Made by a program: the position numbers and the translations under genes
The notes under the pieces: generated by a model
Seen by the model: the letters and a program-made list of their open reading frames with translations, nothing else
What the model was told of the DNA's origin: nothing
Databases searched by the model: none
In this document: positions 5,976 to 29,645 of the stretch, in pieces
How positions within the stretch are numbered: position 1 is the stretch's first letter
How the letters are laid out: each line of letters starts with the position of its first letter
IMG/VR virus record: IMGVR_UViG_3300006752_000077
Span: 1-37,084 of that record
Direction: 5' to 3' (one strand)
Source of the DNA: a virus
Length of the DNA: 37,084 bases

Positions 5976-6410
5976 TTAACTAAAATCTTTTAACATTTTT
6001 GTTATTTCTAATGCGTGTTGTTCTTCCATACCAATTTGACCTCTGGCATATTCTTCTAACATTATACTTGCATTTTCAACTTCTTCTAGTAATTCTTTGT
6101 ATTTGTTTACTGCTCTAACTTCATGTTCTAAACTTTCAGTTAGTATTTGAATAACACTATGATCATGTGATTCTTCTATAGGTGCTATTTGTTGACTAGG
6201 ATGTCCGTCAAAGCCTGTGATATATTCACCTGCAATCAAGGCATGTTGTAAACTTTCTGTTGCTTGTTCCTGTAGGAATGCTACAATAGGAATCCTGTTG
6301 GGTCCTGTTATCATTAACGAACTGTGAGCATAACGTACAACTCCTGCCATTTCTAATTCAACTATCTCGTTGAGTAACTCACATACTCTTTTTAAATTTA
6401 AATCTTTCAT
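5976..6410 (-). CDS. Ferritin-like (bacterioferritin/Dps-type) four-helix protein
   Basis: This 144-aa all-helical protein has ferritin-type signatures. Helix 1 has ELEMAGVVRYAHSSL (about residues 17-31), helix 2 EQATESLQHALIAGEYI, helix 3 ESLEHEVRAVNKYKELL, and helix 4 RGQIGMEEQHALEITKML. The helix 4 ExxH (EEQH) and the Glu residues of helices 1 and 3 fit a di-iron centre. In helix 2 the Glu is four rather than three residues before the His, a deviation that may matter for metal binding. Ferritin-like proteins oxidise and store iron or protect DNA from peroxide. It is the last gene of a late operon with cytochrome c, and its ATG overlaps the stop of the 23-residue peptide gene (ATGA). Confidence 0.7.
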   Translation of the reverse strand: MKDLNLKRVCELLNEIVELEMAGVVRYAHSSLMITGPNRIPIVAFLQEQATESLQHALIAGEYITGFDGHPSQQIAPIEESHDHSVIQILTESLEHEVRAVNKYKELLEEVENASIMLEEYARGQIGMEEQHALEITKMLKDFS

Positions 6411-9434: not shown

Positions 9435-11362
9435 TTATTTTTAGTTATGTACGTTTTATTTATGTCTGGTTCATCATCTGACTTCGGTAAAGGCGTGGCC
9501 CAGAATCCTATTTTCTTTCTAACTTCTTCTTCAGAAGATTTTTGTAACAGTTCTAATATTTCCTTTTCTGTTAGATCTTCTTTATTAAGTTCACTGTTAG
9601 CCATCAATCTTGCGGCTTCACGTAAGTCTCCAGTTGCGGCTTTTTCTACTTCAACCGGTACTTCCTTTTCTATGACCTGTGGAGGAGTCATTTTAAGATT
9701 AGTATTCTCTTGACGTAAAGCAGATATTTCAATTAGTAATTCGTTTACCTTATCTGTGTTTTCTACTTTTACAATTCTTTGTTTGCTTGGGACTTCAACG
9801 ACTCGCTCTGGTCCTGGAACTTCAACGATTCGTTCTGGTCCTGGGACTTCCTTTTCGACAATGCGTTCAACCTCCTTGATGACCTCAATCTCCTTTGGGA
9901 CTTCAACTTCAACGATCTTTTCAACTGGCACCTCCCTTTCAACTACCACTTCTTTAATTACTTCAACCGGAACTTCTACTATCTTCTCAACTTCTTTTTC
10001 TATTATAACTTCTTTAGGCTTATCGTCAAGAGCCTTTAATGTTTTTTTGTACTTCTTTTCCAATAACGATAAGGCCTTTTCTATTTTGTCCGCTCTTTTT
10101 TTTTGGGAGGCACTTTCTGCCATTGCCTTTGCGGCATCTTCTGCCGCACTAGGAAGGTCTGGCATATTATCGCCGTATATTTCTCTGCTTTGTTCTTCAA
10201 AATCACTATCCCAATATTTGTCTGGGTCGTCTTCTGGGTCCTTTGGAGTACTAGGTCCTGTGCTTTCTAAATTAATACCGTACCTAAGTAATGTCTGGTT
10301 TGCCGCAATCAATAACATAACTGCTAATGGATCAAATACAAAAACAAAAAGTAATATGAATATTCTTATTGCTTTGTCCATTACTGATTGGTCTGATGCA
10401 CCATAAAGTAATTCAGCCACATATTTAATTGGGCCTACTTCTCGCTCTAAGTCTCTTACTTTACTTTCTGCTTCAAACTTATCGTCTTTTAATACTGCAA
10501 TGACATCATATATACCATCTATCTGATTATTAAATTCGTCTATCTTAATTAAGTTATCGTCTTGTGCTGATTGGCTATTGTTTCTTAATCTGTTTATTTC
10601 AGCATTAGCACCGTTGATTGTGTCTTGTGCTTGTAATCTATATGCATCTATATTTGCTTGTTGCTTGTCTATGTCTACTTTTATATCTGCACGTTGTTGT
10701 TCTTGTTGGTTGTACAAGTCGTTTGCCTGTGCAACATAGTCTATTTTTTCTGTAGTGTCTCCTTGGAATATACCACCTTCATCTGTGGTTACAATCTCTA
10801 CACCTTTGTTTCTTAAATCGTTTACTGCTTTATCTAATACTGCTAGTTGGTCTCTAAGTCTGTCTATTTGTCCTTGTGCATAATCTATATCGCCTTGTAC
10901 TCTTTGCCATGCACCATCTCTTATAGTTTCTTGTTGTGATATACTTTCACTTACGTCAACACTTCCGCCTATACTGAGTATTCTATCTTCTATGATATCT
11001 ATTTTATTTTCTTCTCTGGCTATCTGTCCGTCTAGTCTATCTACTTCTGCAAATGCTACAGCACCATCGCTTGAAACATCAGAAGCCGCTTTAGAAAGAT
11101 AACCGTAGATACCAGCAGATGTAATTAACATAAGAACAATTACGGCACTACTAAGGTATGTTTTTAAGGCTAAGGAAGTTTCGTTCCAATAACGATACAG
11201 CCAACTTGCTGTAAGTAGTTTACCTACTTCTAATACACCAGCCATTATGGCTACACTTAGAGGCATGCCTCCAAAGAATATCATAAGTCCAGCAATACTG
11301 AACCAAGCGGCTACGCCGGCAATTGCCAGAGCGGTGATTAATGTAAGTAGTCCGAACCACAT
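9431..11362 (-). CDS. Large membrane and coiled-coil protein with VEVP-type repeats
   Basis: This is a 643-aa protein. Three or so membrane helices lie in residues 1-90 (including MWFGLLTLITALAIAGVAAW and SSAVIVLMLITSAGIYGYL). A long coiled coil of about 230 residues follows. A further hydrophobic helix lies near 325-345 (IFILLFVFVFDPLAVMLLI). Then comes a linker, a low-complexity stretch of repeated E-(K/R)-x-V-E-V-P units (about 455-535), and a final helix region. No enzymatic motif was seen. It may be a membrane-spanning scaffold or a superinfection/host-takeover protein. It is the first gene of the clpX operon, with a GATAAATA late box only 7 nt before the ATG. Confidence 0.75.
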   Translation of the reverse strand: MWFGLLTLITALAIAGVAAWFSIAGLMIFFGGMPLSVAIMAGVLEVGKLLTASWLYRYWNETSLALKTYLSSAVIVLMLITSAGIYGYLSKAASDVSSDGAVAFAEVDRLDGQIAREENKIDIIEDRILSIGGSVDVSESISQQETIRDGAWQRVQGDIDYAQGQIDRLRDQLAVLDKAVNDLRNKGVEIVTTDEGGIFQGDTTEKIDYVAQANDLYNQQEQQRADIKVDIDKQQANIDAYRLQAQDTINGANAEINRLRNNSQSAQDDNLIKIDEFNNQIDGIYDVIAVLKDDKFEAESKVRDLEREVGPIKYVAELLYGASDQSVMDKAIRIFILLFVFVFDPLAVMLLIAANQTLLRYGINLESTGPSTPKDPEDDPDKYWDSDFEEQSREIYGDNMPDLPSAAEDAAKAMAESASQKKRADKIEKALSLLEKKYKKTLKALDDKPKEVIIEKEVEKIVEVPVEVIKEVVVEREVPVEKIVEVEVPKEIEVIKEVERIVEKEVPGPERIVEVPGPERVVEVPSKQRIVKVENTDKVNELLIEISALRQENTNLKMTPPQVIEKEVPVEVEKAATGDLREAARLMANSELNKEDLTEKEILELLQKSSEEEVRKKIGFWATPLPKSDDEPDINKTYITKNK

Positions 11363-11369
11363 AATGTAC

Positions 11370-11377
11370 TATTTATC
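11370..11377 (-). promoter_or_regulatory. Late promoter GATAAATA for the clpX operon
   Basis: The minus strand reads GATAAATA, then 7 nt, then ATG at 11362. With T4-type initiation the leader would be about 2 nt. It is the only promoter-like element placed to drive the eight overlapping genes down to 5976. Confidence 0.65.
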
Positions 11378-11420
11378 GCTTATTTGTGTTCCATTAACAA
11401 CGTTTTGGATAAAGGTGTAT

Positions 11421-11428
11421 TATAAATA
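11421..11428 (+). promoter_or_regulatory. Late promoter TATAAATA, leaderless geometry
   Basis: This exact T4 late consensus is followed by 5 nt (TAGGA) and ATG at 11434, so the expected start of transcription is the A of ATG. It is divergent to the late box at 11370-11377. Confidence 0.8.
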
Positions 11429-11433
11429 TAGGA

Positions 11434-12612
11434 ATGCATATAGAAAAAATAGATAATATACAAAGTGCAGGAGATCATATACCTGGTCTAGTTGATTTAT
11501 TTTTAGACGAACAGTCATCTGATAAGTCACTTGTATATACAGAATTTTTTCCTAATATACATAAACACTTTGCAAATGAAATACAACAATTATTTACACT
11601 AGGAACATTACACGGCTCTAAAGGTGTAAGTGTAGATTTAGTTTGTTCTCAACCTTCTGATATTTACTATGAAATATGTCCTAAAACTTTACAGAGTTTA
11701 CCTAAAAACAAAATAAAATACTTTTTACAAAATTACAATGTAATTATACATGATTACGTTGAAGGTTCTTGGTGGTTTAATATGTCTATTACTCCTGTAG
11801 AATTTATAAGAAGTCTTAATATCTTACCACGTAATGTAATTTTATCAACTACTAGTGGCGATAACGAAGAAGTTAAAGAACTTAATATAAAATCAGGATT
11901 TTTTCCTTTGTGGATGATGAGAGAATATTCAGATCTTCATTCAGAACTTCCACTAGGTATTGAATTTAATTTTAATCCAAAAAAACTTGCTCTCATACCT
12001 GCAAGAAAGGCCAGGAGTAGTCGTGTAATATTACTTGCAAAAATGCATGAAAAAAAGTTACTAGACGATTGCGACTGGAGCCTAGTAATAAATTTTAATG
12101 AGGATGGAGAAGTTGGAGATTTTTTTACTAGTCCTGCACTTAGTCATAAAAGATTTAATTTAATGGAAACAAGCGATGAACCTTATATAAAAAACTTTTT
12201 CAATAGATACAGGAAAGAATTACCTAAAGTGTTTGAGGAAATCCCTAACAACTCTGTAGCAGATTGTAGATTCATTAATGCATCTTGGTTAGGTTCTTAT
12301 AATTATTATATTGCAACAGAACCAACATTAGGAGGTTCAATTCATGCTACGGAAAAAACTTGGAGAGGAATGGGTTTAGGCCTACCTGTAATTACTCTTG
12401 CAAGTGCAGGATTTAATACTTGGTTAGAATCACTAGGGTTTAAAACAATAGGCGACTTTGATCATTTAGACTGGGACGAAAGAGTATTTGCAATAGTAGA
12501 CTTCTTACAAAAACCTATAGATTTAGAGTATAATGAAAGTGTTGCTAGGCACAATTACAACTTAGTACACGATAAAAAGTTTATACTTAGTTTAATAAAT
12601 ATTCCAGAATAA
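11434..12612 (+). CDS. Glycosyltransferase-like protein, 392 aa
   Basis: The C-terminal third carries YYIATEPTLGGSIHATEKTW, then RGMGLGLPVITLASAGFNTW and LESLGFKTIGDFDHLDWDER. This TEKTW...(G)LPVI...LxxLGFKT pattern is shared by many marine phage proteins with a GT-B-like C-terminal nucleotide-sugar binding half. The N-terminal 200 residues are less conserved and not recognised. A role in glycosylating host surface, DNA or virion protein is possible; the acceptor is unknown. It is the only plus-strand gene between 1 and 15600 and starts directly at a late promoter without a ribosome site. Confidence 0.55.
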   Translation: MHIEKIDNIQSAGDHIPGLVDLFLDEQSSDKSLVYTEFFPNIHKHFANEIQQLFTLGTLHGSKGVSVDLVCSQPSDIYYEICPKTLQSLPKNKIKYFLQNYNVIIHDYVEGSWWFNMSITPVEFIRSLNILPRNVILSTTSGDNEEVKELNIKSGFFPLWMMREYSDLHSELPLGIEFNFNPKKLALIPARKARSSRVILLAKMHEKKLLDDCDWSLVINFNEDGEVGDFFTSPALSHKRFNLMETSDEPYIKNFFNRYRKELPKVFEEIPNNSVADCRFINASWLGSYNYYIATEPTLGGSIHATEKTWRGMGLGLPVITLASAGFNTWLESLGFKTIGDFDHLDWDERVFAIVDFLQKPIDLEYNESVARHNYNLVHDKKFILSLINIPE

Positions 12613-19584: not shown

Positions 19585-20639
19585 AATTTTAAATCCAATG
19601 CCTGTATGTACAGTTGCTCACTAGCCAAATTTTTAGCCTTAGCCTCACACTGAATATCAAAGTCGTTCCAAAAACTCAATGCCCATTCGTTTGCTTTGTG
19701 GTTAGGATAGAAGTCAGAATGTGCTCTTAGTTTTTGCTTCTTAGCACCTGACTCTAGTAGTAAAGGAATTTCGTGTAAACTACTATGTCTTGTACCCTCA
19801 TTAATTTGTGTAGATTGGTCTAACCATTCGTCCCTGCTGTAACTGTAATGTAGTGTAGGCCTAACACCACGCCAACTATCAATTACTCTTTTAACACGAT
19901 CATCATCTGCTTGTATGTATTCTTCGTCTCGTATCCAGTGATGGTGTATGTCTAATACTAAGGCTACATGTTTTTCTAATTCTAAAGAAGCATCTAGTCC
20001 GTGGCACATCTCATCATTTTCTATAGTAATAATGTTTCTTGCTTCAGGTGTAAGTTTAGGTAATACATCTATAATTCCTTGATAACCTTGTCTGCCTGAG
20101 ATGTGTACATTACACTTAAAGTCTTGAAACTCTTTACCATAACCCATCCAACGTGCCATACTTACATGGTATTCAAACTCTTCTATTGATCGTTCAACAA
20201 TATCAGGATTATCACTTGCAAGAACACAGAACTGTCCAGGATGGAAACTTAGTTTTACATCTAGTTGCCTAGCAAGATCACCCACTTTAATAAATTCTTT
20301 TTCACAATATGCTTGTACATCAGGCTTTTGCCAGTAATAGGACCAATCCTTTTCTGTAAATGCTGGTAGGCAATCACTACCTAGTCTTACCATTCTTCGT
20401 TGAGGTATAAGACTGCCTGTGTATTCAACTAGGTTGTAGTAACTTTGTATGTTGTGTACCATAAGGTCCCATAGCCTTTGTTCAGCAACATCTTTCTCTT
20501 GTCTATTAAGCCAAGTAATAGTTGTGGATTTAGTATTGAAAGGACGTTGTGTTTCTTCTAATACTTTTTTAGGCAGAGATTGGTCTGCTTCTAAATATTT
20601 ACAACAAAACCCAATACGTTTTACAGATTGATCAAACAT
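19569..20639 (-). CDS. uvsE: UV damage endonuclease UvsE/UvdE
   Basis: This 356-aa TIM-barrel nuclease has RIGFCCKYLEADQ at the start, LSFHPGQFCVLAS, CNVHISGRQG, IITIENDEM and VLDIHHHW, the last carrying clustered metal-binding His, Asp and Glu. It nicks DNA 5' to UV photoproducts and other lesions, which is useful in sunlit water. The start is set at ATG 20639 (MFDQSVKRIGF) because the family begins there; the frame extends to 20705 only through the upstream gene. The overlap with that gene is 8 nt. Confidence 0.95.
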   Translation of the reverse strand: MFDQSVKRIGFCCKYLEADQSLPKKVLEETQRPFNTKSTTITWLNRQEKDVAEQRLWDLMVHNIQSYYNLVEYTGSLIPQRRMVRLGSDCLPAFTEKDWSYYWQKPDVQAYCEKEFIKVGDLARQLDVKLSFHPGQFCVLASDNPDIVERSIEEFEYHVSMARWMGYGKEFQDFKCNVHISGRQGYQGIIDVLPKLTPEARNIITIENDEMCHGLDASLELEKHVALVLDIHHHWIRDEEYIQADDDRVKRVIDSWRGVRPTLHYSYSRDEWLDQSTQINEGTRHSSLHEIPLLLESGAKKQKLRAHSDFYPNHKANEWALSFWNDFDIQCEAKAKNLASEQLYIQALDLKLCQTT

Positions 20640-20895
20640 TTTTAAATATATCCATAGCCTCTTGTTGTGATTTACTGAAGTCTGTATTAAAACTTTCTTT
20701 ATCAATCACATCATTTGTTAAAGAACTTATTAATAGTATAAGTTTTTGTGTCAATGTTGTCAAGTTATTACTACTTAAATCAACAGGATTTTCGTCCATG
20801 TGAGTAATTATACCGTTGCTATCTTTAAATACTTCGTGTATAGAAAAAGATACTTCTGTATTATTAGTTCGTATTACTCTGTATTCGCTTGACAT
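20632..20895 (-). CDS. Hypothetical protein, 87 aa, leaderless early start
   Basis: The start is set at ATG 20895 (MSSEYRVIRTNNTEVSFSIH). It lies exactly 6 nt after the TATAAT of an early promoter, so the longer upstream frame to 20967 would begin before the transcript. The protein is soluble, with a beta-rich first half (HEVFKDSNGIITHMDENPVD) and a helical second half. Similar short proteins with an N-terminal YRVIR strand occur in marine myophages. Function unknown. First gene before uvsE. Confidence 0.75.
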   Translation of the reverse strand: MSSEYRVIRTNNTEVSFSIHEVFKDSNGIITHMDENPVDLSSNNLTTLTQKLILLISSLTNDVIDKESFNTDFSKSQQEAMDIFKNV

Positions 20896-20901
20896 TACAC
20901 T

Positions 20902-20930
20902 ATTATAATATATTATGAATAAAAAGTCAA
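20902..20930 (-). promoter_or_regulatory. Early promoter, leaderless geometry (uvsE operon)
   Basis: The minus strand reads TTGACT (20930-20925), a 17-bp spacer and TATAAT (20907-20902), 6 nt before the ATG at 20895. It is the only sigma70-type promoter here with 17 rather than 16 bp. Confidence 0.8.
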
Positions 20931-20935
20931 GATAA

Positions 20936-20943
20936 GATAAATA
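20936..20943 (+). promoter_or_regulatory. Late promoter GATAAATA for the structural block
   Basis: The plus strand GATAAATA lies 5 nt from the -35 of the divergent early promoter. A leader of about 33 nt with CCGGAGATATAA precedes ATG 20982, so this late gene is not leaderless. Confidence 0.75.
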
Positions 20944-20981
20944 CATGTGTAATTTACAATTTTTCATATCCGGAGATATAA

Positions 20982-21587
20982 ATGGCTACAGTTAAAAAAT
21001 ATAATTTAGCAGGTGTTAGCACTAGTTTAGAACTTGGTAAGCAAGGTTCCTACATTACTGGTAACGCAGATGCAATCGGATTCTACACTTCAGGTGATGC
21101 TTTACAAAAGATCGCAATAGCAAACGCAACAGCGGCAACAGAAGCAGTAACAAAGGCACAGTTAGATGAACTAGCAGGTGATCTTGTACAACATGTTACT
21201 TTAGATGTTGACTTTAATGATACAGGTGCAAGTAACATTGCCACAATAGCGGCAGGTAGTAGAATTCTTTCAGTAACAGTTGATGTTCCAGGTGCCTGGA
21301 CAAATGGCGGTGCTGGAGACTATGTTGAAGTAGGTGATACTGCTAATGGTTCAAGATTTATTAGAAGTGGAGATATTGATGTCACTAAAGTAGGCCAATA
21401 TCATTCACAATACCAATACGAATATTCTGCAGAAAGTGTTATGACAGTTGAAGTAACAAATGGTGCCGCAACTGCCGGTACAGCCACAGTTAGTATTGTG
21501 TTAGCAAGTGATAGTGTAAGTGTAACTGATTACGGTTCAATTAACTCAGCACAAAACAGCAATAACGACTTAGGTAACATTTCTTAA
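20982..21587 (+). CDS. Virion-type protein A, 201 aa, paralogue of the next gene
   Basis: Low-charge, Ala/Gly/Thr/Val-rich sequence of structural type. The N-terminus VKKYNLAGVSTSLELGKQG and the central AVTKAQLDE are repeated in the next gene (VKNYGIAGASTTIELGKQG, AVSKGQLDA). After these comes a beta-sandwich-like domain (VTVDVPGAWTNGGAGDYVEV, ending TAGTATVSIVLASDSVS). This suggests a head decoration, fibre or baseplate-associated protein. It is first in the plus-strand late block behind a GATAAATA promoter and a GGAG ribosome site. The exact virion position cannot be told. Confidence 0.7.
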   Translation: MATVKKYNLAGVSTSLELGKQGSYITGNADAIGFYTSGDALQKIAIANATAATEAVTKAQLDELAGDLVQHVTLDVDFNDTGASNIATIAAGSRILSVTVDVPGAWTNGGAGDYVEVGDTANGSRFIRSGDIDVTKVGQYHSQYQYEYSAESVMTVEVTNGAATAGTATVSIVLASDSVSVTDYGSINSAQNSNNDLGNIS

Positions 21588-21601: not shown

Positions 21602-22138
21602 ATGGTAGACTCAGTAAAAAACTATGGTATAGCAGGAGCAAGTACAACTATTGAGCTTGGTAAACAAGGTGCAGTAATTGATGCTTCAAGTAGCTCAGTA
21701 ATTAGTTTAAAAGACAAAGACGGTGCATTAGAAAGTGTTGCCTTAGCAAACGGTACAGCAAGTAGCCATGCTGTATCTAAAGGTCAATTAGATGCAAGTG
21801 TTTCTCAAAAATTAAGTTACATTAAAACTACAGTTGCATACAACTCAGGCACAACATCAATTGGTACAGCAAGTGCTAATACAACAATCCAATTTGTAAC
21901 AGTTGAAAAAACTGCTGGTAATTGGACTAGTGCTGATGCAAGTACGGAAATTACTGTTGGTGATTCAGGTGATGTTGATAGACTATTTGCAGGGTTTGAA
22001 CCAGCAGGTGGACAATTTAAACATGATGCAGACCATACATATAGTTCTGATACTGCTGTTAATATAATAGTTACTACAGGCGGTGCATCAGCAGGTTCGG
22101 CTGATGTCTATGTTTACTATACTGGTACTATAGAATAA
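21602..22138 (+). CDS. Virion-type protein B, 178 aa, paralogue of the previous gene
   Basis: It has the same layout as the 20982-21587 product: N-terminal IAGASTTIELGKQG, then ALANGTASSHAVSKGQLDAS, then a beta-rich domain with WTSADASTEITVGDSGDVDR and an end GGASAGSADVYVYY. The 14-nt gap holds TAGGAAAC as ribosome site. The tandem pair probably arose by duplication and may form related or mixed multimers in the virion. Confidence 0.7.
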   Translation: MVDSVKNYGIAGASTTIELGKQGAVIDASSSSVISLKDKDGALESVALANGTASSHAVSKGQLDASVSQKLSYIKTTVAYNSGTTSIGTASANTTIQFVTVEKTAGNWTSADASTEITVGDSGDVDRLFAGFEPAGGQFKHDADHTYSSDTAVNIIVTTGGASAGSADVYVYYTGTIE

Positions 22139-22648: not shown

Positions 22649-22656
22649 GATAAATA
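22649..22656 (+). promoter_or_regulatory. Late promoter GATAAATA, leaderless geometry
   Basis: GATAAATA, then GATGT, then ATG at 22662. With T4-like initiation the first transcribed base is the A of ATG. Confidence 0.8.
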
Positions 22657-22661
22657 GATGT

Positions 22662-23090
22662 ATGAGCATAAGAAAATACATCGCAATCATAGAAGCGGCT
22701 GAGCAATCGTGTCCTTTAGCAACTAAAGACCTAGAGCTCAATACCAAGAATCGAGACGCAACTCTTAAAAATTTCAATTACGGTCCTTTGAACGTAGATG
22801 AACCAGGTGACTATTGGAAAGATATAGGCAAATACTGGAATACTACAGAAGAAGCCGCCAAAGAAAGTAATTGTGGTGTTTGTGTAGCATTTGATATATC
22901 TCCCAGAATGGATGATTGTATGCCAGGTATTACCTCAGATGAACATGGAGTATTAGGGTACTGTTGGATGCACCATTTTAAATGTCATAGTGCTAGAAGT
23001 TGTCATACTTGGGCAAAGGGCGGTCCTATAGAAAAAGACGACGTAAGTTATGAGTGGGGCGAAAGGAATCAAACAGCAGATGAAGATTAA
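22662..23090 (+). CDS. Cys-rich late protein, 142 aa
   Basis: The start is set at ATG 22662; a TTG at 22647 lies before the promoter box and cannot be used from it. The N-terminus MSIRKYIAIIEAAEQ has an I-I-E-A site. The middle, KDLELNTKNRDATLKNFNYG, precedes EPGDYWKDIGKYW. The second half is rich in Cys and His (NCGVCVAFD, DDCMPG, YCWMHHFKCHSARSCHTW), suggesting a zinc or iron-sulphur site. The family is familiar from marine T4-like phages but has no known function. Late, leaderless gene in the structural block; an internal virion protein is possible. Confidence 0.7.
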   Translation: MSIRKYIAIIEAAEQSCPLATKDLELNTKNRDATLKNFNYGPLNVDEPGDYWKDIGKYWNTTEEAAKESNCGVCVAFDISPRMDDCMPGITSDEHGVLGYCWMHHFKCHSARSCHTWAKGGPIEKDDVSYEWGERNQTADED

Positions 23091-24993: not shown

Positions 24994-25001
24994 GATAAAT
25001 A
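24994..25001 (+). promoter_or_regulatory. Late promoter GATAAATA, leaderless geometry
   Basis: GATAAATA, then GTTGT, then ATG at 25007, with the same 5-nt gap as at 22649 and 27725. No ribosome site is present. Confidence 0.85.
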
Positions 25002-25006
25002 GTTGT

Positions 25007-26500
25007 ATGAAATTATATGACTTATTTGAACAGCAAAAACCTTTAAATCAAATTCAAAATTATTCATCTCAAGGTGAATTTATTGATAAAGGTGTGAGTG
25101 CCTACAATTCTGGTGGGTTACCTATGCTGTATAGGTATATAGAAAATCAACTAGGCTTTAAAAAAAATGATGTAGAAAGAGATTTCTTACCTACTAAAGC
25201 AGAACATACTCGCGAAGAAGATGCAGTTATGGCCTTCTTGGGTGAGTTAGAAAGTATGGCAGTTGAGGGTAAGAATTCTCCTAAACAAGTAAATCCAGTT
25301 GCAAAACACTCTCGTAATAAGAGTGGTGCCGGTGCTCATAAGTCACCTAAAGACTATGACAGAAAAGATGCAAAGAAAGACATTAAGCAACAGTTAGGCG
25401 AAAAAGGCGACATGATGATTGGTGAGCCAGATGCTTATTATGATGCTGAAGAAAGACGTCAAGCATACAACGATTTACAGGATGCATTAGAACGAAGTAG
25501 TAATGTTGAAGCAATGTATGTTAAAGATGGCCATTGCCCAGAATGTCCTAATGTAGAAGATGATGAAGACTGTTATGGGTTTGGCAACTACGGTTGTGAC
25601 GATGGTATTTTAACATACAATGGTGACGATGTAAGTTGGAAAGAAATACAAGATCATGATGAACGTCAAGCACAACGACAAAGTGCTAAAGACAATTATC
25701 CAGGTGACGAAGAAGTTATAAAAGGATTAGCCAACATGATGAAAAACATGGATGATCCTAGACAAGCATATCAACAAATGCAGGCAGACTATCCGCACAT
25801 GGGTAGAGCACAAAGAAGTTCGTTAATTGCAAAAGCAAAAGAAATGGCTTTTCCAAATGAAAGTTTTGACGTAAGTGCAGAACAAAGTCGTGAAGAAGAA
25901 GCATACGATGAATTAATGGATGCCCTACATAAAGGTGGCGAAGAAGCATACGCAAAAGCATGTGGTTTATCAATGGAAGAACTAGATCAAGAAATGACTG
26001 AGATTAGCATAGACTTAAACTTGCATATGGATGATGACAGAGATGAAATTATTCAAAGACATGCTGAAGATACAGTAGACAATGCAGATTGGAAAGACCA
26101 TGGCGAAGAAGATTTAGAAGAAAATCTAGATGGATACTACCTAGCTCACCGAGCAAAGAAACTTTGGTTAAAAGATAATCCAGGCACAACAGAACGTGAC
26201 TACTGGCAAGCAGGCGTTAAAGTCCAAGATGAATATACAGAAAAAGCAGGTGGTATTAAAGGCGATTATCAAGGTAAAGGCGTAAGTAATTGGACTGTAG
26301 AAGAGGATATGGATTCAAACGAAGCAGATGTAAGCAAAATGTTAGCAAAGGCATTGGGCGATCCTAATAAATGGTCTGAAATGACGGCACCAGAATTATA
26401 TGCAGAACTAGAAAGTAGAGATACAGAATTCGCTGATGCTATAAAACAAGTTGCAAAAATTGTTTACGGTGTTAAGTTAGAAGAACATCGTGACAATTAA
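25007..26500 (+). CDS. Acidic late protein, 497 aa, unknown
   Basis: It starts MKLYDLFEQQKPLNQ, with L-F-E in the place of a T4-style capsid-targeting leader. Later parts are highly charged and helical (RKDAKKDIKQQLGEKGDMMI, NDLQDALERSSNVEAMYVKD). A Cys-rich stretch follows (GHCPECPNVEDDEDCYGFGN, then YGCDD) that looks like a zinc site, then long acidic helices and a C-terminal KMLAKALGDPNKWSEMTAPE region. No enzyme motif was recognised. It is late, leaderless and acidic, which fits a prohead core or packaged internal protein; this is an inference. The next small gene starts inside its end. Confidence 0.65.
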   Translation: MKLYDLFEQQKPLNQIQNYSSQGEFIDKGVSAYNSGGLPMLYRYIENQLGFKKNDVERDFLPTKAEHTREEDAVMAFLGELESMAVEGKNSPKQVNPVAKHSRNKSGAGAHKSPKDYDRKDAKKDIKQQLGEKGDMMIGEPDAYYDAEERRQAYNDLQDALERSSNVEAMYVKDGHCPECPNVEDDEDCYGFGNYGCDDGILTYNGDDVSWKEIQDHDERQAQRQSAKDNYPGDEEVIKGLANMMKNMDDPRQAYQQMQADYPHMGRAQRSSLIAKAKEMAFPNESFDVSAEQSREEEAYDELMDALHKGGEEAYAKACGLSMEELDQEMTEISIDLNLHMDDDRDEIIQRHAEDTVDNADWKDHGEEDLEENLDGYYLAHRAKKLWLKDNPGTTERDYWQAGVKVQDEYTEKAGGIKGDYQGKGVSNWTVEEDMDSNEADVSKMLAKALGDPNKWSEMTAPELYAELESRDTEFADAIKQVAKIVYGVKLEEHRDN

Positions 26501-27215: not shown

Positions 27216-27726
27216 CGGAATAGGTAAAGCCTTATACGACATACTATCAGTAGATAATGAAGTAGTATGTTTTAGCCGTACTAATGGTTACGATATCGGT
27301 AAAGTAAGGATAATGGAACAAGTAGTGCAAGAGTCAATTGATTGTGATGTCTTTATTAACAATGCTTATGCAGGTATATCACAGGTACATATTTTAAATA
27401 CACTATGGAATTTTTGGAAAAGAGACGAAACAAAAACTATTGTAAACGTTTCCAGTTTAAGTAAATATCCAGGCATCAGTGGAAATGAGTCAGGGTATTC
27501 AGCACATAAGGCCGCACTATCACATCAAGCACTTTTACTAATGTTTAATGGAAGTAGAAAGTGTAGGATGATAAATGTTAATCCAGGATGGGTTGACACT
27601 AAAATGACTAAAAAAGTAACCGCAAATAAACTTACTGCACCAGAATGTGCAGAACAGATTGCATACGCAATCAAACTACCACAACATATAGAAATAGGAG
27701 AACTTAGTCTCTGGCGCCCATACTGA
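27187..27726 (+). CDS. Short-chain dehydrogenase/reductase (SDR), short form
   Basis: TGHTSGIG (6-13) binds the nucleotide cofactor. FINNAYAG replaces the usual NNAG, the catalytic Ser is S89/S90 in NVSSLS, and YSAHK gives Y104 and K108. The product is 179 aa, shorter than typical SDRs (about 250 aa), with several helices trimmed. PGWVDTKMT near the end is the usual PGxVxT motif. The substrate is unknown. It is tightly coupled to the preceding oxygenase gene, suggesting two steps on one substrate. Confidence 0.88.
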   Translation: MKIALTGHTSGIGKALYDILSVDNEVVCFSRTNGYDIGKVRIMEQVVQESIDCDVFINNAYAGISQVHILNTLWNFWKRDETKTIVNVSSLSKYPGISGNESGYSAHKAALSHQALLLMFNGSRKCRMINVNPGWVDTKMTKKVTANKLTAPECAEQIAYAIKLPQHIEIGELSLWRPY

Positions 27727-27732
27727 TAAATA
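27725..27732 (+). promoter_or_regulatory. Late promoter GATAAATA, leaderless geometry
   Basis: GATAAATA overlaps the stop of the SDR gene and is followed by GTAGT and ATG at 27738. No ribosome site is present. Confidence 0.85.
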
Positions 27733-27737
27733 GTAGT

Positions 27738-29645
27738 ATGAAGCAAATAGTTATATATCCAGGACGTTTCCAGCCTATGCTGTCTCATCATGCGGAAGTA
27801 TTTGATAGACTACAGGCAAAATTTCCTAATGCGGAAGTTTATATTGGTACATCTGATAAGACTGACGAAGATAAGTCTCCTTTTAATTTTAAAGAAAAGC
27901 AGATAATAGCACAAGGACATGGCATTGATTCTAATAATGTTCTTTTTGCAAGAAGTCCTTATGTACATACTTTCTATGATATACCTGATCAGGAAAACAA
28001 AGTAGTAATATTTGCTGTAGGTGAAAAAGACAAAGAACGATTTACATTTGATAATATAGATGATAAAACCGGATTAAATATGAAGAAAAACGGTGAGCCA
28101 TATTATTATCAGATGATAAATACATATGACGCAGATAATCCTGTCCCTATGACTGAGAGAGGGTATATCTACAATGTACCTAATATTGAATCTGATGAAG
28201 AAGAGATTGCAAGTGCAAGTGCTTTTAGAAATGCAATGAAGAATGCTCCTGATGAGCAATCTGCAAAAGCAATTTTTAATAAGCAATTTAAAAATTATAA
28301 TGAATCATTATTTAATTTGGTTTATAAAAAAATAGCAGGTAATAAAATGAAAGAAAGCCTAGATACATTAAAAAAATTAGCAGGACTAGAAGTATCTGAA
28401 GACGCTCCGGTTGAGTTTGAAACTCCAATGAACTTAAAAGACATTAAGTTTACTCCCCCAAGTAAGAGCAGTTCTTATATGAGCATAGCAAACAGATTCC
28501 CAGAAGGTTCTGATGTTAATGACCCTGAGGTCAAAAAGGAAGAGTTTATAAAAGTTCTACTTAAAGCACCTTTATCTCTACTTTCTGAAATTAACGAAAG
28601 AATATCCCCAGCAGATGACAACGGTCTTGCAGTAAGTACTAAGTTAAGTCAAGTTATTGATAACTTAGGTAGAGACGGAGATCTTAAGGATCTTAAAGAC
28701 GACGACAGAGCATTTGCAATTAAAATTGTTAAACTTGCTATTGATAAAATGGAACTAGAAGCAGGCGACGATAGTCCTACTTACGATGAATTGGAAGGCA
28801 CTAAAGAAGAAAGTTTAGACTTATCAGATATCAGAGATGATTATGGTATAGAGGAAGATAAAGAGTCTGTTGAAGACTGTATTCGTAAAACATTAGAAAA
28901 AGAAGGCGGAGCGGCTGGAAAAGGTGCTCTAGTTGATGCTTGTAAGAAAGCAGGATATTCTGAAGACGAATGTGAAGATGCAATATCTAAAATGTCTAAT
29001 GTTAAAAAACATGAACATGGTGACTATATATTAGAAGACGAAGAAGCACACATAGAAGAAGGTGGCGATTGTTATCATTGTGATGGAAAAGATGAAGACT
29101 GTGATCATTGTGATGGTGATGGATATGTTAAATTTGATGACGATCCAAATGAGCCTTCACAAGAAGAAATAGATGATCATGAAGCGGCATATAAAAAATA
29201 TGTAGGTAAGAATAAGAAAGACGAAGGTGTTGAAGAAAGCAGTGAAGATTCAGGCGAAGGTTCTATAAACAATATGGATGACGATGAACTTATGGCTTAT
29301 GTGGGACAAAAAGAAGAAGACATAATTGATGATATACAAGATCATATTTCTCCAGACTTTTTACACAAAGATAACTATGAAGAAATGTTTGACAGGTACA
29401 GAGAAGAAGTATTAATACCAGCCGCACATGAGGTTAGCCAAGATGCCGCTGACGGCATGGAACCTGCAGATGCAGACTACGAAGAATCTGTTGAAGCAAC
29501 ATCTAGAAATGCTTTTGATCAAGCATTAGAAGAACTTAAAAAGTTAGCAGGACTAGAATTAAATGAAGATGAATCAGAAGATTGTCCTAAATGCGGTAAA
29601 ACAAAACATGTATTAAAAGCATGTGCATCATGTGGGTGTAGTTAA
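27738..29645 (+). CDS. Nucleotidyltransferase fused to a long acidic domain with zinc-finger-like motifs
   Basis: This is a 635-aa protein. Residues 1-190 are a HIGH-family nucleotidyltransferase (YPGRFQPMLSHHAEVF, an altered GRFQPxHxGH; FAVGEKDKERF; SASAFRNAM in place of the ISTTxIR-type motif). After this come SLDTLKKLAGLEVSED (about 211-226), a long acidic helical part, a half DnaJ-type zinc motif CYHCDGKDEDCDHCDGDGYV (about 446-465), a second LEELKKLAGLELNEDE, and a final CPKCGKTKH...CASCGC knuckle. The activity would be adenylyl or cytidylyl transfer, with unknown substrate. The late leaderless promoter and acidic tail suggest that the enzyme is packaged or attached to the prohead. Confidence 0.75.
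   Translation: MKQIVIYPGRFQPMLSHHAEVFDRLQAKFPNAEVYIGTSDKTDEDKSPFNFKEKQIIAQGHGIDSNNVLFARSPYVHTFYDIPDQENKVVIFAVGEKDKERFTFDNIDDKTGLNMKKNGEPYYYQMINTYDADNPVPMTERGYIYNVPNIESDEEEIASASAFRNAMKNAPDEQSAKAIFNKQFKNYNESLFNLVYKKIAGNKMKESLDTLKKLAGLEVSEDAPVEFETPMNLKDIKFTPPSKSSSYMSIANRFPEGSDVNDPEVKKEEFIKVLLKAPLSLLSEINERISPADDNGLAVSTKLSQVIDNLGRDGDLKDLKDDDRAFAIKIVKLAIDKMELEAGDDSPTYDELEGTKEESLDLSDIRDDYGIEEDKESVEDCIRKTLEKEGGAAGKGALVDACKKAGYSEDECEDAISKMSNVKKHEHGDYILEDEEAHIEEGGDCYHCDGKDEDCDHCDGDGYVKFDDDPNEPSQEEIDDHEAAYKKYVGKNKKDEGVEESSEDSGEGSINNMDDDELMAYVGQKEEDIIDDIQDHISPDFLHKDNYEEMFDRYREEVLIPAAHEVSQDAADGMEPADADYEESVEATSRNAFDQALEELKKLAGLELNEDESEDCPKCGKTKHVLKACASCGCS

Follow-up and report, generated by a model that had tools for sequence, protein, structure and literature searches.

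A conserved overlapping pair of predicted early and late promoters in a phage group with widespread predicted leaderless starts

The DNA analyzed here, hereafter the window, is the 37,084-nt IMG/VR virus record IMGVR_UViG_3300006752_000077. It contains a site at which two predicted promoters of different classes diverge. On the minus strand a sigma70-type promoter, which matches the consensus at 11 of 12 positions, precedes a gene for an 87-aa protein and the UV-damage endonuclease gene uvdE (uvsE), while on the plus strand a T4-type late promoter box precedes a gene for a 201-aa protein. The features of this site and of the late genes beyond it are as follows:

20639-19569, minus strand: uvdE (uvsE), UV-damage endonuclease, second gene of the early operon (PF03851, E 6.8e-32; PHROG endonuclease)
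20895-20632, minus strand: first early gene, 87 aa, with its family aligned among relatives
20895-20893, minus strand: early start codon ATG, 6 nt after the -10, with its A at the predicted +1 (predicted leaderless)
20907-20902, minus strand: -10 hexamer TATAAT of the early promoter, 17-nt spacer (mean information 1.79 bits, 25 clusters)
20930-20925, minus strand: -35 hexamer TTGACT of the early sigma70-type promoter (mean information 1.87 bits, 25 clusters)
20936-20943, plus strand: late box GATAAATA of the T4-type late promoter, identical in 29 of 29 cluster representatives
20949, plus strand: predicted late +1, box plus 6 nt, from the spacing of the leaderless late class
20948-20958, plus strand: short inverted repeat TGTAATTTACA opening the late leader
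20972-20975, plus strand: Shine-Dalgarno sequence GGAG of the late gene
20982-21587, plus strand: late gene, 201 aa, with a predicted jelly-roll core and a leader that holds the inverted repeat and GGAG
21602-22138, plus strand: tandem second copy of the 201-aa family (family profile, E 1e-26)
22649-22664, plus strand: predicted leaderless late start, GATAAATA, 5 nt, ATG at 22662
24994-25009, plus strand: predicted leaderless late start of a 497-aa gene, GATAAATA plus 5 nt, ATG at 25007
27725-27740, plus strand: predicted leaderless late start of a 635-aa gene, GATAAATA plus 5 nt, ATG at 27738

The original prediction had placed a minus-strand sigma70 promoter and a plus-strand GATAAATA promoter back to back at this site. 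The two indeed diverge across a gap of 5 nt (20931-20935), the stretch from the -10 hexamer to the end of the late box measures exactly the 42 nt that had been given, and the observation of the promoter pair is confirmed. It had further been proposed that the site marks the border of the late block. One border does lie here, but late boxes are found on both strands of the window, which rules out a single strict late block of which the site could be the edge. Motif counts within the window are weak evidence, as GATAAATA occurs 9 times against 4.0 expected (4 of 100 shuffles reach 9) and the sigma70-like sites between 12000 and 31000 number 86 against the 81.8 expected from shuffles; hence it is conservation across relatives that has to decide. 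A plus-strand sigma70 look-alike (20889-20916, 11/12) overlaps the early promoter stretch, and was rejected as a promoter of the late gene, such look-alikes of at least 10/12 being present in only 3 of the 29 cluster representatives. A DNA look-up of the site in named phages gave no match. At a second divergent gene pair of the window (11362-11434) late boxes stand on both strands, GATAAATA at 11377 on the minus strand and TATAAATA at 11421 on the plus strand.

Besides the window, the 201-aa gene was recovered in 44 further loci. In each of these 44, GATAAATA lies 32-56 nt upstream of the matched 201-aa start, with one letter altered in L045 (GAAAAATA; this locus is not a cluster representative), and a divergent sigma70 promoter at a gap of 5-12 nt accompanies it in 40 of the 45 loci, window included. 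Dropping exact duplicates of the 85-nt module and then clustering at 90% identity reduced the 45 loci to 36 and then to 29. The promoter pair is present in 25 of these 29 clusters, as against 65 of 5800 shuffled sequences (1.1%). In the clusters the letters of the motifs are kept while the sequence of the spacer varies, with a mean information of 2.0 bits in the late box, 1.87 in the -35 and 1.79 in the -10 as compared to 0.53 in the first 14 spacer positions. The sigma70 site was not found in four of the 29 clusters (L015, L040, L041 and L042). On the early strand of these four and of L016 we observed TATAAGTA followed by 5 nt and an ATG (read by eye in L041); TATAAGTA represents the second-best class of one-letter late-box variants (ATAAgTA), with 7 of 176 at offset 5. 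The early promoter of these loci may have been replaced by a late-like or middle promoter variant.

A comparable picture emerged upstream of UvdE, for which the best 80 of 202 loci were taken as relatives; merging the upstream regions by identity of their last 300 nt reduced 124 of them to 70 distinct ones. The pair precedes the UvdE operon in 48 of these 70 regions, as against 5 of 1400 dinucleotide shuffles. Half of the remaining 22 have, in the same place, the variant late box TGTCAACTAAATA followed by 5 nt and an ATG, and all 11 of these carry a 12/12 sigma70 promoter on the opposite strand. In this variant form the late ATG opens at least 229 codons in 10 of the 11 regions and four codons in L076, and the early ATG lies 6 nt past the -10 in 7 of the 11. 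Neither form of the pair is seen in the last 11 of the 70. The types among them include other coding-like upstream sequence, an own sigma70 promoter or none beside a tRNA-like stretch, the TATAAGTA form and the altered box of L045 (read by eye). By eye we noticed tRNA-like sequence directly upstream of the uvdE region in L041, L109, L111 and L119, and a sigma70-like promoter with a leader before uvdE in the first three of these. Across the relatives, -35 and late box are separated by anything from -2 to 12 nt.

The early transcription unit had been described as a leaderless uvsE operon. Its ATG does lie 6 nt past the -10, but the first gene is the 87-aa ORF and UvdE comes second. A start of the early ORF at 20967 was rejected, since the N-termini of the 87-aa family in relatives align from the ATG corresponding to 20895. 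The 87-aa protein has no match in Pfam. The likely start of uvdE is the ATG at 20639, which overlaps the 3' end of the small gene, and the UvdE matches of many relatives (among the best 80 of 202 loci) start at residues 21-24 of the longer ORF; in named phages UvdE has distant relatives only, with less than 60% identity. The early ATG lies 5-6 nt past the -10, at the predicted +1, in 20 of the 25 promoter-bearing clusters. The early side is not leaderless in the other five, and in L030, L033, L035 and L037 the early ATG stands 20-25 nt past the -10. L003 and L018 do without the small gene and have the ATG of uvdE itself exactly 6 nt past the -10, and this survival of the distance through a change of gene argues for its function. 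A leaderless start on the early side thus appears to be common, not universal.

In a second set of relatives a different late gene faces UvdE, which is GDSL-like in three of the four cases tested (E of 0.01 or lower, with one exceeding the Pfam cut-off). Here two base pairs belong both to the -35, which reads TGTCAA on the late strand, and to AATAAATA, and such shared-base forms, TGTCAATAAATA or AGTCAATAAATA, occur in 14 loci with 9 distinct modules. In four of the nine (L095, L106, L112 and L125) both starts are of the predicted leaderless type, with the early ATG 6 nt past the -10 and the late ATG 5 nt past the box; 46 bp separate the two start codons in these four, and 46-47 bp in the tightest modules as a whole. 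Several of the GDSL-bearing relatives have the 201-aa homologue, with a late box of its own, about 750-850 nt further along, while L058 and L069 are without the GDSL-like gene and have the 201-aa homologue itself at the promoter pair. As judged from these arrangements, the pair outlasts the change of the neighboring gene.

A further observation concerns late boxes followed by GTAG...CTAC-like and ATAATCGATTAT-like elements, often with GGAGTAACC, before the start codon. They are seen at the pair in L058 and L069, and elsewhere in L059, L081, L082, L086, L091 and L125; in the loci outside the pair their distance from uvdE, which is on the other strand, is about 740-850 nt. The genes behind them, translated for L058, L069, L082, L086 and L125, are 201-aa homologues, and the elements following the late box look like a conserved 5' leader.

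The 201-aa late protein itself found no match in Pfam or PHROG, and none in named phages. Its structural model has a pLDDT of 67.7 overall and of about 85-90 for residues 71-170. In a Foldseek search the three best matches among solved structures were phage capsid chains, with the KHP30 capsid chain 7dn2 as the best (E 3.4e-7) and the KHP40 cement protein as the third (E 2.5e-5). As a lead from a model of middling confidence, this points to what is perhaps a capsid cement or decoration protein. Tandem copies of the family are also found in relatives. Inverted repeats with arms of at least 5 follow the late box in 16 of the 29 clusters as against 21% of shuffles. Palindromes such as TTGTAATTACAA directly after the late box were noticed in the window, L006, L010, L013 and L015, and this inverted repeat is the sole candidate site that we noticed for a regulator of the phi29 type.

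The spacing between promoter and start codon was then tabulated over whole records, namely the window and tiles of the records of nine relatives (10 records). Among 360 NATAAATA boxes, 71 (about 20%) have, at offset 5, an ATG that opens an ORF of at least 60 aa; offsets 4, 6 and 7 have 0, 11 and 6, respectively, offsets 9-16 average 1.0 each, and the other start codons at offset 5 amount to two GTG and one TTG. A Shine-Dalgarno-like sequence is seen in 2 of the 71 leaderless late starts, as against 87 of the 118 leadered ones. None of the 21 single-substitution variants of the box has an offset-5 ATG rate above 5.2%, with ORF cut-offs of 60 and 40 aa. After the -10 of sigma70 promoters of at least 11/12, the ATG falls at 6 nt in 27 cases, at 5 nt in 6 and at 7-18 nt in 6 altogether, and beyond offset 18 these promoters show a leadered class in the same records. 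The base at -1 is T or C in 68 of the 71 late and 30 of the 33 early leaderless cases. The composition of the 71 leaderless late sites revealed no conserved -35, and G is the commonest first base of their boxes (0.56). T4-type late promoters usually start about 6 nt after the octamer, which would put the +1 on the A of the offset-5 ATGs. The predicted leaderless starts of both promoter classes combine an AUG at the predicted +1 with the near-lack of a Shine-Dalgarno sequence, as expected of leaderless mRNAs. In bacterial leaderless mRNAs, AUG is the best start and 70S ribosomes are used (PMC9031893, cited in part).

An ATG at offset 5 was seen in none of 39 boxes in 99 kb of T4, none of 7 in 50 kb of Syn9 and 3 of 60 in 100 kb of PA5oct; among 268 boxes in 48 loci with a PA5oct-type sigma, offsets 4, 5 and 6 have 6, 4 and 1, respectively. 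In the Pelagibacter phage HTVC008M (KC465899) it is found in 9 of 45 boxes. All nine (ATGs at record positions 6280, 7562, 16007, 18916, 19456, 31132, 49760, 75559 and 142360) coincide with start codons annotated in GenBank, and the genes include those for baseplate, tape-measure and end-protector proteins, so that an isolate with a cultured host shows this class. If the predicted starts are right, about one-fifth of the late boxes in this marine phage group give rise to leaderless mRNA, a result that bears on phage translation in marine bacteria as well as on gene calling. In the literature searched, which covered few subscription journals, we came across no account of the promoter module, nor of leaderless late genes in phages like T4 or PA5oct.

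The labels "early" and "late" that the original prediction gave to the two motifs agree with the function of the genes behind each of them, as judged from 28 genes of known kind. Of 11 genes for structure, packaging or lysis, 7 have a late box in front of them, and one of the four without it has just 27 nt of upstream DNA; among 17 replication or nucleotide genes a single one has a late box. A sigma70 site of at least 10/12 stands before 1 of the former 11 and 8 of the latter 17, but six of the eight are nrdA, taken from different records. The 100 kb of PA5oct contain 9 leadered GATAAATA sites, of which 8 stand before annotated structural proteins with mass-spectrometry support.

With regard to affiliation, the UvdE-bearing relatives (among the best 80 of 202 loci) reach 216 kb in the largest, G015. 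At 55.7% identity, its terminase matches those of PA5oct and of Pseudomonas jumbo phages like it, and PA5oct matches were likewise obtained for the polymerase, the tail sheath and the tail tube of G015. These matches suggest a place for the phage group in the neighborhood of Arenbergviridae, among the T4-like phages in the wide sense. The proteins of the window itself have fewer and weaker matches to PA5oct than G015 (five ORFs, 26-45%).

A late sigma is annotated in PA5oct. In the incomplete fragments of the group, T4 and HTVC008M queries retrieved nothing significant as a late sigma, and no significant match was obtained in their ORFs with sigma profiles of T4, marine, rhizobial and PA5oct-type origin (T4, HTVC008M, AF3, K369, S-CAM3, DLP2, PmiM, Atu_ph07 and PA5oct-type), which did recover the known sigmas added as positive control. 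Searches of these fragments for the gp45 clamp and for gp33 were likewise without a match. A T4 gp55 match with E 0.0036 was rejected as it is actually an HNH endonuclease. PHROG 234, PHROG 12791 and PF04542 gave no late sigma match in 22 records, where the two PHROG families are uninformative, being silent in control genomes too. As the records are fragments, we do not take these negatives as absence.

Taken together with what is known of related promoters, these features suggest how the site might operate. Early in infection, the host sigma70 polymerase would use the minus-strand promoter to make a leaderless mRNA for the 87-aa protein and UvdE. Later, a phage sigma of the T4 gp55 type would direct the polymerase to GATAAATA, and thereby to the structural operon with its leader and Shine-Dalgarno sequence. 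The late complex would now cover both the early -35 and the -10, so that the early operon is locally silenced, and timing would come mainly from the change of sigma factor and not from a race at the site. The footprint of sigma70 polymerase extends from about -55 to +20. In T4 the switch to late transcription is brought about by a replacement sigma factor together with the sliding clamp, which both act everywhere, and through the clamp the late complex reaches 13 bp further upstream (PMC2988020, cited in part). With such an extension and the sigma70 footprint, the two complexes would occupy almost the same 60-70 bp, and for this reason the late complex should block the early promoter.

The mutual exclusion of binding that the original prediction had proposed is supported in so far as the sites are conserved, divergent and so close that by geometry two polymerases should find no room together; the 5-nt gap itself is not conserved. 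Simultaneous use of both promoters is improbable. In the modules with shared bases, where no base pair can be contacted by two polymerases simultaneously, geometry makes mutual exclusion close to certain. A local early/late switch, as had been envisaged, is plausible, though timing more likely comes from replacement of the sigma factor. We consider it rather probable that these are two real promoters which cannot be jointly occupied, with the late sigma setting the timing and the late complex silencing the early operon. As a more tentative proposal, which on balance we doubt, the site could be one instance of a bidirectional promoter module that selection maintains; in its tightest form, the open complex of the late sigma would activate one gene and at once repress the other in a regulator-free and leaderless manner. 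Its persistence through changes of the neighboring genes favors selection, whereas the varying gap and the general compactness of these genomes call for caution as to the usefulness of the blocking.

Several other explanations have to be weighed against this picture. Scarce intergenic room might suffice to account for the arrangement, and as early promoters are shut off globally anyway, the interplay of the two would then have no regulatory value. The unfixed gap fits such compaction, as does the fact that leaderless starts, which save space, are common throughout these genomes; moreover, back-to-back pairs with a sigma70 site of at least 10/12 are found at 18 of the 241 gene-bearing late boxes in the 10 records, and about half of these 18 are the UvdE-operon site itself. 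It fits less well with the persistence of the pair with or without the GDSL-like gene and after loss of the small early gene, and we regard compaction alone as a possibility of real weight, if not a probable one. That competition between polymerases at the site itself sets the early/late change of these genes seems improbable. Despite the overlapping or shared promoter bases and their conservation, T4-type timing stems from a new sigma and clamp that act globally (PMC2988020, cited in part), most late boxes have no adjoining early promoter, and the early site is missing from 4 of the 29 clusters.

The start points were predicted from sequence, and it is conceivable that transcripts begin elsewhere, in which case the genes would not be leaderless and the spacing between box and ATG could be, for instance, a translation signal within a longer leader. 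An in-frame upstream ATG in 10 of the 71 late and 3 of the 33 early cases would agree with this, as would L076, in which the ATG 5 nt past the variant box opens four codons only. However, a sharp peak at a single offset is seen for two unrelated promoter types, together with near-exclusive use of ATG, almost no Shine-Dalgarno sequences and a pyrimidine at -1, and the nine HTVC008M cases fall on annotated start codons; we believe that starts elsewhere are quite unlikely. As for chance matches in AT-rich DNA, the sigma70-like sites of the window are as frequent as in shuffles, but the conservation of the pair among relatives, when set against shuffled controls, refutes this explanation and leaves it a negligible probability. 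The wider finding, as far as sequence comparison can establish it, is a conserved overlapping pair of early and late promoters in a phage group with widespread predicted leaderless starts. Overlapping promoters of this kind would be a minimal example in which one sigma class keeps another out with no repressor involved.

The late promoter of the group resembles T4-type late promoters in its octamer, in the lack of a conserved -35 and in its position before structural genes. The T4-type late promoter is TATAAATA, with NATAAATA in marine cyanomyoviruses (PMC2984593, cited in part). The group differs from these in that about 20% of its boxes have an ATG at the predicted +1, as against none in T4 and Syn9, in that G is the commonest first base, and in that gp55 was not found in its incomplete fragments. 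In RB49, S-PM2 and Syn9, early and late promoters stand before the same gene (PMC2984593, cited in part). The window shares with these T4-like phages without MotA and Asi the joint presence of sigma70 and late promoters, but there the pair drives one gene, whereas the pair of the window diverges and would drive opposite genes. PA5oct, among the nearest isolates by the terminase of G015, also has GATAAATA before structural genes, and is unlike the group in that its late genes are mostly leadered.

Among leaderless phage mRNAs, that of lambda cI is an example. Others are those of phiYS40 of Thermus (PMC3594737, cited in part). The group is like both in that phage genes would be translated from mRNA starting at AUG, and unlike both in that this is predicted for early as well as late classes, under T4-type transcription and in marine phages. 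In phi29 the early promoters A2b/A2c and the late promoter A3 are neighboring and divergent. There, with p4 and p6, activation of the late promoter accompanies repression of the early ones (PMC10899789, cited in part). For this phi29 relies on p4, a DNA-binding regulator, whereas in the phages described here the late promoter appears to belong to a different sigma class.
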